Assembly: GCA_021740825.1 (NCBI GenBank)
Contig: JAIOZA010000001.1
Span: 1-64,000, forward strand
Source: Bacteroidia bacterium
GTDB lineage: Bacteria > Bacteroidota > Bacteroidia > B-17B0 > Aurantibacillaceae
Direction: 5' to 3'
Length of the DNA: 64,000 nucleotides
Shown here: positions 3,929-56,157 of the stretch, one piece after another
How the letters are laid out: every line of letters begins with the position of its first letter
Position numbering within the stretch: position 1 is the first letter of the stretch
Program-made: the position numbers and the translations under genes
Notes under the pieces: model-generated
Told to the model about the DNA's origin: nothing
Databases searched by the model: none
Seen by the model: the letters and a program-made list of their open reading frames with translations, nothing else

Positions 3929-3984
3929 GTCATGCTGAACTTGTTTCAGCATCTCAAAAGACCCTGAAACAAGTTCAGGGTGAC
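3929..3984. repeat. REP-like inverted repeat (GCTGAACTTGTTTCAGC type)
   Basis: A 56-bp inverted repeat made of two related arms: GTCATGCTGAACTTGTTTC... and its near reverse complement ending CCTGAAACAAGTTCAGG then GTGAC. Each arm is itself a palindrome (TGCTGAACTTGTTTCAGCA; CCTGAAACAAGTTCAGG). It lies between anmK and crcB, 5 bp after the anmK stop, and could fold on the transcript. This design is typical of REP-like intergenic elements. Confidence 0.75.
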
Positions 3985-10446: not shown

Positions 10447-10519
10447 ATTACGAATTTATACGAATATACGAATCTGTGTTTTGTAACTAGATTCGTATAT
10501 TCGTATTTTAATTCGTAAT
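10447..10519. repeat. Hairpin repeat related to the ends of the GxxExxY unit
   Basis: A long imperfect inverted repeat: left arm 10447-10475, right arm 10489-10519, and 13-nt loop. The left arm contains ACGAATATACGAATCTGTGT (10460-10479), identical base for base to 34772-34791 at the edge of the GxxExxY gene, and the right arm carries the complementary TTCGTATATTCGTAT. It looks like both ends of that unit joined without the gene. It lies between tpiA and prmA. Confidence 0.85.
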
Positions 10520-24419: not shown

Positions 24420-24562
24420 TTAACCGCAAAGACCGCAAAGTTATTTTTTTTAGGAGAGTTCGCAAATAAGTAACAAAGATTATTTACTATTGTTTGTTTT
24501 ATGCCCTACGTGGATTAAACTCTCCGTTCTTTGCGACTTTTCTCTGCTTCTTTGTAGTTAAA
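24420..24562. repeat. Degenerate inverted repeat of the TTAACCGCAAAG type
   Basis: Left arm TTAACCGCAAAGACCGCAAA (24420 onward) and an imperfect reverse-complement right arm around 24530-24562 (CTTTGCGAC ... CTTTGTAGTTAA). A nested pair, GGAGAGTT (24453-24460) and AACTCTCC (24518-24525), reinforces the symmetry. The interior of about 90 bp has no reading frame of note. This accounts for most of the hemH-dxr divergent intergenic region. Confidence 0.55.
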
Positions 24563-29582: not shown

Positions 29583-29870
29583 ATGATTATGATTAAAAAT
29601 GCATTGATTATTTATATTATTTTAATAAATCTAATCGCTTATATAATGATGTGCTTTGATAAATATCAATCAAAGAAAAAAGGAAATCGTATCTCTGAAA
29701 ATAAATTATTTTTTATAGCAGTTTTATTAGGAGCTGTTGGTATTTATTTAGGAATGAAAGCGCCTATTTATCATAAAGCAGCTAAGACTACTTTTAAAAT
29801 TGGAATTCCTTTATTGATTATTTTAAATGTGGTTTGTATTTATATTTGTTCTCGACTACGCTCGAACTGA
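29583..29870 (+). CDS. DUF1294 membrane protein
   Basis: Protein of 95 residues from ATG 29583 (ATG 29589 is also possible). A longer frame from TTG 29556 would start inside the mscL terminator and is rejected. Three hydrophobic segments are seen (about 5-22, 40-60, 75-92), with the DUF1294 signature FDKYQSKKKGNRISE and the GAVGIYLGMKAPIYHKA block (Gly-rich turn followed by a membrane helix). It is an inner-membrane protein of unknown function. The last codons (CSRLRSN) and stop are supplied by the left arm of an inverted repeat, so the C-terminus has probably been replaced by repeat insertion. Confidence 0.85.
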   Translation: MIMIKNALIIYIILINLIAYIMMCFDKYQSKKKGNRISENKLFFIAVLLGAVGIYLGMKAPIYHKAAKTTFKIGIPLLIILNVVCIYICSRLRSN

Positions 29871-29907
29871 CAATAGTATTTCTGTCACTTCGAGCGTAGT
29901 CGAGAAG
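29849..29907. repeat. Inverted repeat of the TCTCGACTACGCTCGAA type
   Basis: Left arm 29849-29872 and right arm 29883-29907 are reverse complements over 24 bases with a single mismatch, separated by about 10 nt. The left arm codes for the final residues and stop of the DUF1294 gene. Single-arm relatives are at 1467-1487 and 48741-48764. Confidence 0.8.
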
Positions 29908-32686: not shown

Positions 32687-32757
32687 GGTATGAATTTACT
32701 ATGTAAAGTTCGTCAATATTTATATATGTGTTCTTTACGTATGATAAGATTTTTTTT

Positions 32758-32800
32758 AACACATAGTCACATAGTTATAGATACTATGTGACTATGTGTT
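32758..32800. repeat. Perfect inverted repeat of the CACATAG type
   Basis: AACACATAGTCACATAGT (32758-32775) and its exact reverse complement (32783-32800) around a 7-nt loop, ending at the base before the stop codon of the adjacent VOC gene. There is no T run in the correct direction, so it is not a standard terminator. A related repeat occurs at 55904-55951. Confidence 0.8.
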
Positions 32801-33196
32801 TTAAATTACTCGAGGCTCAATCAAATCCCACAAATTGCCATACAAATCAGCAAAAACCAAAACAGTTCCATGTGGTTTGCTAGTTAGTTCTTCAACAATA
32901 GTAACTTTTTTTTCTAATAAATTTTGGTAATCTCTTGCGATATCATCCGTGTATAAAAACAAAAATACGCGTCCACCTGTTTGATTACCTACTCTATTTT
33001 GTTGTTCCTCATTACTTGCTTTTGCTAGTAAAATAGTTGTTCCCACACTCCCTTGAGGAGCTATAAGTACCCAACGTTTAGTTGGACTCATTACTTTATC
33101 TTCTAATAAAATAAAATGTAATGTTTGAGTATAAAATTTGATGGCTTCATCGTAGTCGTTTACTACTAAAGCTATATGGGCGAGGGATTGGATCAT
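32801..33196 (-). CDS. VOC family protein coupled to RidA
   Basis: Glyoxalase/bleomycin-resistance-type protein of 131 residues, with the N-terminal unit SLAHIALVVNDYDEAIKFYT and a second unit ending VLVFADLYGNLWDLIEPRVI. The start codon shares a base with the stop codon of the RidA-like gene (TAATG overlap at 33194-33198), indicating translational coupling. It may therefore act in the same pathway as the aminomuconate enzymes, but the VOC superfamily is too broad to name a reaction. It ends next to a perfect inverted repeat. Confidence 0.85.
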   Translation of the reverse strand: MIQSLAHIALVVNDYDEAIKFYTQTLHFILLEDKVMSPTKRWVLIAPQGSVGTTILLAKASNEEQQNRVGNQTGGRVFLFLYTDDIARDYQNLLEKKVTIVEELTSKPHGTVLVFADLYGNLWDLIEPRVI

Positions 33197-34757: not shown

Positions 34758-35246
34758 ATTACGAATTTTGTACGAATATACGAATCTGTGTTGGTTAGTG
34801 TATTTATTGGTTTGTTTCATTTACAACGCGTTTAATTCTTACGCCGTTACTCGTGAAGTTTATTAATATAGCTAATTTTAAATTTGAAACTTTAATATAG
34901 TTAGATACTTGATCAATATATTTTTTCGAATAAAAATCACTTCTTTTTAATTCAATAATTACTTTTTCTTCAATTAAAAAATCTAAATAATTATTTCCAA
35001 TAACTTCCTCTTTGTAAATTACTTGATATGGTGCTTGCTCTTTAAATACAATACCCGCCTCTTTTAATTCTTTTGCGTATGCTTTTTGGTATATTTTCTC
35101 TAAATGTCCGTGACCTAATTCATTAAAGACATTATAAGCTAAACCAACTAATTGATAGCTCAATTCAGGATATATTAAATCTTGTTTTTGAATCATTTTA
35201 TTCATCTCTCATACACAGATTCGTATATTCGTATACGATTTGTAAT
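34758..35246. mobile_element. Candidate mobile unit: GxxExxY gene between inverted repeats
   Basis: A 489-bp segment. Left end 34758-34791 and right end 35213-35246 are inverted repeats of about 34 bp: the inner 21 bp match perfectly (core ACGAATATACGAATCTGTGT at 34772-34791 and its reverse complement at 35213-35232) and the outer 13 bp with 4 mismatches. They enclose one gene only, and its start codon is 7 bp from the right-hand repeat. I see no clear target-site duplication and no transposase. A near-complete copy without the gene is at 10447-10519. Confidence 0.65.
34804..35205 (-). CDS. GxxExxY protein, PD-(D/E)XK nuclease-like
   Basis: Protein of 133 residues of the GxxExxY family (TIGR04256; PF13366). 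It has the motif GHLEKIYQKAYAKEL near residue 32, containing the GxxExxY pattern, and the nuclease-like signature LDFLIEEKVIIELKRSD (Asp ... Glu-Leu-Lys) near residue 75. The C-terminal part (YIKVSNLKLAILINF, then VRIKRVV) completes the family pattern. No enzymatic activity is established for this family; the PD-(D/E)XK-type residues are intact. The gene is tightly enclosed by inverted repeats, and it interrupts an otherwise metabolic minus-strand gene series between an aminomuconate-semialdehyde dehydrogenase and thiL. Confidence 0.92.
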   Translation of the reverse strand: MNKMIQKQDLIYPELSYQLVGLAYNVFNELGHGHLEKIYQKAYAKELKEAGIVFKEQAPYQVIYKEEVIGNNYLDFLIEEKVIIELKRSDFYSKKYIDQVSNYIKVSNLKLAILINFTSNGVRIKRVVNETNQ

Positions 35247-35268
35247 TATAAATTCGTATTCTATTCTT

Positions 35269-55809: not shown

Positions 55810-56157
55810 TCATATTTAATAAATAACTACAAAGGCACAATAGTTCTATGTTTAAAACCTCGTTTCAATCACTTACTTTAAAATGATTTTATTTTCTATG
55901 TTTCTATGTTTCTATGTGGTTAAAAATAAAAATAACCACATAGAAACATAGCAAAAGTAAGGTTACTAAAGTCTAAAGATAGAAAACTTGTTTTTACACA
56001 TAGCTAACTACGCAAGGTGTAGCTCCTTTATTTTCGGTTTCATTTATTATAAAAATCTATGTCTCTATGTGTTTAAAAAAATAAATGATGAATATTAAAA
56101 AAATTAACAGCAATTAACTAGTTATAAATTCAATATTTATATACCTTAGACTTCATA
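55810..56157. other. Repeat-filled intergenic region
   Basis: 348 bp without a gene. It contains a perfect 19-bp inverted repeat (55904-55951) and several degenerate copies of the same CTATGT/ACATAG words (about 55838-55851, 55997-56004, 56057-56073). A 22-codon frame across the repeat is an artefact of its low complexity. No RNA gene or terminator recognised. Confidence 0.7.
55904..55951. repeat. Perfect inverted repeat of the CACATAG type
   Basis: CTATGTTTCTATGTGGTTA (55904-55922) and its exact reverse complement (55933-55951), with an A-rich 10-nt loop. The left arm is preceded by two further CTATGTTT units (from 55896), and more degenerate copies occur downstream at 56057-56073. Related to the 32758-32800 repeat by the shared ACACATAG/CTATGTG words. 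Confidence 0.8.

Follow-up and report, generated by a model that had tools for sequence, protein, structure and literature searches.

A GxxExxY nuclease-like gene framed by inward-facing repeat arrays: a REPtron-like arrangement in Bacteroidota

The closest described counterpart of the system treated here is the one formed by REP-associated tyrosine transposases (RAYTs) and repetitive extragenic palindromic (REP) sequences, or REPtron, in which the gene lies between two inverted cognate repeats, further repeats are dispersed without a gene, repeats and protein co-evolve, and repeat copy number is correlated with the presence of the gene (PMC2817692; the system is also treated in PMC8266576). 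An arrangement of this kind is found in a 64-kb stretch of DNA (the window) from the 2.95-Mb, 58-contig genome of a Bacteroidia bacterium, where a gene of the GxxExxY family, named in PMC8934634, is framed by two inverted arms made of ACGAAT-type units. GxxExxY genes share with RAYT genes the flanking pair of inverted cognate repeats, the dispersal of these repeats without the gene, the co-evolution of repeat type and protein, and the correlation of repeat abundance with gene presence. On the other hand, GxxExxY proteins are of the PD-(D/E)XK type by profile and predicted fold, whereas RAYTs are HUH (Y1) tyrosine transposases, and the GxxExxY protein is strongly conserved, unlike the fast-evolving RAYTs. 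Moreover, its arms are arrays of directed units, in which spacers match at chance level (n 13–30) and unit symmetry alone permits partial pairing, and gene-bearing genomes of the genus hold 15–16 strict ACGAAT matches, a count that degenerate copies would raise, compared with the usual >100 REP copies. The GxxExxY system is REPtron-like in outline, but it is not a member of the REPtrons, and its protein is unrelated to RAYTs.

The unit of the window is 489 bp long (Table 1). Its arms of 34 nt are 88% complementary and include a perfect 21-bp core (34771–34791 and 35213–35233), as had been described in an earlier note on this DNA (21 bp perfect, about 34 bp imperfect), and they head the 31 inverted-repeat pairs listed for the window. 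The nuclease-like gene with PD-(D/E)XK-type residues proposed in the same note is borne out by the scores of its product, which reaches 105.7 bits against PDDEXK_3 (PF13366; cut-off 22) and 110.1 bits against the GxxExxY profile TIGR04256 (cut-off 35), and by the invariance of E36, D75, E85, K87, and Q99 across 44 aligned sequences. The predicted fold is PD-(D/E)XK, with Cas4 as the nearest structure; a sequence search of the PDB gave no match at E up to 1, and searches of PADLOC and PHROGs gave weak matches and nothing stronger. Cas4 proteins hold four cysteines of an iron–sulphur cluster. Unlike Cas4/RecB-type nucleases, GxxExxY is a stand-alone gene of about 132 codons, the window protein has no cysteine, and no cas genes are present among the neighbours inspected, which are thiL-like and aldehyde-dehydrogenase-like genes (named by reading translations).

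Insertion sequences and miniature inverted-repeat transposable elements also have terminal inverted repeats and exist in gene-bearing and gene-less forms. However, the GxxExxY unit contains no DDE or HUH transposase, in agreement with the earlier note, its gene is strongly conserved, and no target duplication has been resolved. The unit likewise differs from the intervening sequences of 23S rRNA, since it lies between protein genes and not inside a 23S rRNA gene, and a scan of the window returned no Rfam family at gathering scores.

The association of GxxExxY genes with inverted repeats extends well beyond the window. The genome carries five PF13366 genes, each with inverted repeats at its sides, and these repeats belong to four unit types: AACCGCAAAG-like (L009), CCGCAGATTTCGCAGAT (L010), ACATAG (L011 and L012), and ACGAAT (the window). 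For L009 the match is short (12 nt, with a score of 24 versus 23 in a control placement), and further units are visible around it. Thus, the suggestion that all GxxExxY genes might be flanked by the window's own end sequence does not hold for that sequence, but it does for inverted repeats as such. In every type, the arm is a series of short units, mostly 8–9 bp apart and directed towards the gene. PF13366 was found in 75 of 148 sampled Bacteroidota genomes. When the best 80 of 580 loci from named genomes were scanned, 45 of the 76 with enough flank showed an inverted-repeat score of at least 24, versus 2.1% of 380 placements within the same loci; the scanned loci are mostly from Bacteroidota, but also from Ignavibacteria, Neomarinimicrobiota, Anaerolineae, cyanobacteria, Opitutaceae, and one contig binned as archaeal. 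A larger set was pooled from protein and family searches plus 60 loci fetched by place, and is therefore top-scoring or hand-picked rather than random. Its 216 gene-bearing loci were reduced to 202 without duplicates, 197 with enough flank, and finally 194, after three loci found by DNA alone were dropped (including L001, the representative of the window's own copy). Units of the same type on both sides of the gene (at least three units, with at least one on each side) are present in 133 of these 194 loci and in none of 184 control placements. Of the remaining 61, 30 exceed the 99th percentile of 417 controls with their inverted repeat, several of these 30 showing units of further kinds, so that a unit array or an above-threshold inverted repeat accompanies 163 of 194 loci.

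The type of unit follows the branch of the protein. When the five unit types are placed on a tree built from 131 labelled proteins (of 133, two being too short to include), they need 8 changes, versus a mean of 35.4 in 200 shuffles, none of which was so low; a protein of this small size leaves many forks unresolved, and related loci inflate such scores. Type B (ACGAAT, that of the window) requires a single change, on a weakly supported branch (55). Different unit types coexist within one genome, each paired with its own protein branch.

Repeat copy number also follows the gene. The pattern TACGAATNTACGAAT and the window protein were both searched in the same 120 relatives, some with incomplete assemblies, and a genome counted as a carrier of the window's branch when its best protein match reached about 1e-29 or lower. 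The pattern is present in 17 of 19 genomes with the branch and in 28 of 101 others (mean matches, 8.2 versus 1.3), and the difference in ACGAAT copy number persists after stratification by genus (p 5e-5, the floor of the test). In genus g1, matches number 15, 16, 16, and 16 in the four gene-bearing genomes and 0 to 13 (median 0) in the 16 without the gene; in genus g84, three gene-bearing genomes have 5, 6, and 7 matches, and 23 without the gene have 0 to 2, mostly 0. The type A pattern behaves similarly, being present in 33 of 35 genomes with its gene versus 42 of 113 without it (family-stratified p 0.002). The link is not wholly specific: among genomes lacking the window's branch, it occurs in 25 of 70 that have other GxxExxY genes versus 3 of 31 that have none. 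Three members of the window's branch (L145, L148, and L149) contain in-frame stops, and their genomes still carry the pattern. Reversed control patterns gave no match in one search and two single matches in another. These controls, together with the empty control placements and the match of unit type to protein branch, refute a chance proximity of ordinary intergenic repeats or terminators to these genes, a reading that could draw on the mainly intergenic position of the repeats inspected and is now hardly credible.

Gene-less copies of the arrays are dispersed in the same genome. In the window, the 20-base core recurs exactly at 10460–10479, as had been noticed earlier, within an array that holds no gene. 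This gene-less copy is real, but its former description as a hairpin is better replaced by one of directed ACGAAT units facing inverted ones. The arm sequence is found at at least nine other places of the genome (BLAST, E 4e-7 to 7e-4), namely the array at 10447 and places on seven other contigs, a count that is a lower bound, as 40 of 186 candidates were scored. For the ACGAAT type, one gene-bearing copy is therefore outnumbered by gene-less ones, which supports the earlier view of a recognisable unit that exists with or without the nuclease-like gene. Tandem pairs of ACGAAT number nine in a 464-kb sample, a figure that degenerate copies would raise.

Table 1. The GxxExxY gene, its arms, and gene-less repeat arrays located in the 64-kb window
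Feature	Position	Strand	Basis or remark
GxxExxY / PDDEXK_3 gene, 133 aa	34804..35205	-	profile matches; E36, D75, E85-x-K87, Q99 all present
Arm upstream of gene	35213..35246	-	ACGAAT-type units pointing towards the gene
Arm downstream of gene	34758..34791	+	ACGAAT-type units pointing towards the gene
Additional solo ACGAAT unit immediately outside the arm	35252..35257	-	sequence
Gene-less ACGAAT array, three units facing three	10447..10519		between tpiA-like and prmA-like genes; extra unit at about 10531–10539
Gene-less tandem pair of type A units (AACCGCAAAGACCGCAAAG)	24422..24440	+	pattern search
Gene-less type E (ACATAG) facing array	32753..32805		inverted-repeat list and unit search
Gene-less type E (ACATAG) facing arrays	55875..56070		inverted-repeat list and unit search

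Several arrangements of units depart from the facing pair. At L344 of the same genome (G000:C22), ACGAAT units (three and five) all point in one direction, without a facing arm. At L182 (G004:C13:34307-34568), a pair of type A units is repeated four times at an exact spacing of 81 bp, as in a tandem amplification, and at L134 (G150) a complete gene-less array precedes the gene, which is followed by one arm, in a mosaic resembling composite REP structures. The window also contains gene-less hairpins at 29849–29906 (TTCTCGACTACGCTCGAACTGACA), a repeat with dozens of places in congeners, and at 3929–3984 (GTCATGCTGAACTTGTTTCAGCATCT), with three motif matches in 464 kb, two being its own arms. For two hairpin families of the window distinct from the GxxExxY units, the copies lying within 1.5 kb of each other in the 464 kb were the hairpins' own arms, and no gene-bearing unit was seen. 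GIY-YIG genes were considered as partners of other repeats and rejected, the genome having three matches, two inside long reading frames and one a fragment.

The presence of the arrays varies among relatives at orthologous sites. Between the aldehyde dehydrogenase and thiL genes, four of 20 congeners carry the gene with its arms, one a gene-less array, one a solo arm, and 14 no array. Relatives lacking the insertion, looked for on the suggestion of the earlier note, thus do exist, but the exact junctions are too diverged to show a clean empty site. Upstream of prmA, four of 18 congeners have an array (degenerate in one case, and preceded by a different gene in another), two have remnants, and 12 have none, one of these 12 bearing a single unit; no tpiA-like gene was seen upstream in five of the 18. 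At six more sites of the genome, compared with eight congeners wherever the fetched loci had both flanks readable (for L342, in one congener), every site is array-less in at least one congener. Across species, the site of L343 is occupied by type B units (two species), type A units (two), or an unrelated hairpin (a single species), and in two species it has none of these; with its orthologues (L435, L438, L452, and L454), it shows various repeat families in one intergenic place, as if this were a safe landing spot. Members of the window's branch also occupy different sites in further genera and families, and unrelated surroundings are seen around type A genes that are about 75–81% alike in DNA.

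Taken as a whole, the favoured reading, held with slightly better than even confidence, is that of a lone nuclease family with branch-specific DNA words, forming a two-part system like that of the REPtrons. GxxExxY proteins would be stand-alone RecB/Cas4-like PD-(D/E)XK nucleases, and each protein branch would recognise its own short DNA word, whose directed units form two arrays that face inward. The gene and its two arrays would form a single heritable unit, from which gene-less arrays would derive and become dispersed between genes. The protein would bind the units as double-stranded DNA and cut at or near the ends of the arrays, and the repair or copying that follows would gain and lose arrays. 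The evidence suggests that the protein recognises its branch's own repeats and may spread them, and we infer that the nuclease itself would be the spreading agent. As little room for a promoter is left by the arms, expression of the gene probably relies on read-through from the host operon, which would account for the predominance of sense orientation among the copies: 141 of 171 GxxExxY genes are co-directional with both neighbours and 6 are opposite to both, compared with 161 and 22 of 326 genes in the window's own genome.

This sense embedding would also fit an element acting at the RNA level, in which the transcript would fold through pairing of its arms and the RNA would be the target of the protein, as with an intervening sequence. 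The similar tandem-unit arms of PF05635, a family named after the 23S rRNA intervening sequences, point the same way, as does the fact that gene-less type B arrays are often symmetrical beside the loop too (CTGTGT / ACACAG). However, the spacers of facing arms match no better than expected, with values, all from small samples, of 0.32 versus 0.29 in gene-bearing type A (n = 30), 0.23 versus 0.30 in gene-less type A (n = 13), and 0.55 versus 0.49 in type B (n = 22). Since the spacers pair no better than chance, the arms seem to consist of short directed units set in arrays, and not of hairpins under selection. In addition, the sense strand shows no excess of wobble-type mismatches (196 versus 249), and the Rfam scan of the window was negative. 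A hairpin or RNA stem as the selected feature was set aside as the principal interpretation, and the RNA-level element as such is considered quite improbable.

PF05635 (23S_rRNA_IVP, four-helix) offers a parallel, likewise with five genes in this genome. Its loci (L014–L018 and L381–L409; 34 given, two without a callable frame) show an inverted-repeat score of at least 24 in 16 of 32 cases versus 1.25% of 160 controls, and 22 of 26 genes are in sense orientation. Like GxxExxY, these are small single Bacteroidota genes, mostly in sense, with inverted arms of tandem units; unlike it, they encode an unrelated protein, and their units are of other sequence and mostly 7–8 bp. A bolder proposal would hold that both belong with minimal mobile systems of an undescribed class, in which a lone RecB/Cas4-like nuclease alone spreads inward-facing arrays of its own 8–9 bp word, with at least five branch-matched words in several bacterial phyla and one archaeal-binned contig, the unrelated PF05635 having built the same architecture independently. 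This proposal is put forward tentatively, and is regarded as somewhat doubtful.

Several observations weigh against a nuclease that spreads its own repeats. The window protein is under strong purifying selection (a ratio of nonsynonymous to synonymous substitution rates, dN/dS, of 0.02–0.17 among four congeners), unlike a freely hopping element. The window copy occupies the same site in another genus (L213), which indicates that it is old. Among the sampled loci, genes lying far apart in the same genome are never near-identical, and near-identical copies within a genome were seen solely side by side (in G092). Some genomes without the branch gene have many matches to the pattern (18 in G233, 15 in G193, 13 in G156 and in G198, 11 in G192, and 10 in G239). 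All these points would suit a cargo or domesticated protein, in which case other machinery, slippage, or recombination would spread the arrays, and GxxExxY would bind or trim them for the host, in chromosome upkeep, defence, or regulation. Such a role is rated as unlikely, as copy number of a repeat type tracks its own protein branch within genera, and as four types occur in one genome, each with its own branch, which general machinery would not predict. Further points against spreading by the nuclease are that 31 of 194 loci lack both units and an inverted repeat exceeding the control threshold, that movement has not been directly seen, that no target duplication was resolved at filled and empty sites, whose sequences are too diverged for exact junctions, and that the match of type to protein could stem from joint inheritance as a single unit, with no recognition involved. 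Recent hopping inside a single genome was rejected, given the lack of distant near-identical genes in the sampled loci and the single side-by-side pair. That pair (L046, G092:C4:68680-69767) consists of two GxxExxY genes 99.7% alike and about 740 bp apart, that is, a recent tandem duplication of the unit.

In the open-access literature, no description of an association between GxxExxY and repeats was found, nor a function for either, and among the matches listed for the repeat strings none looked related. For the GxxExxY family, common in Bacteroidota and without a function found in open-access print, the tie between protein branch and DNA word offers a testable substrate, and it indicates where the intergenic repeats of these genomes probably come from. 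If it is true that the nuclease spreads the repeats, GxxExxY would represent an independent route to a REP-like system without a known type of transposase.
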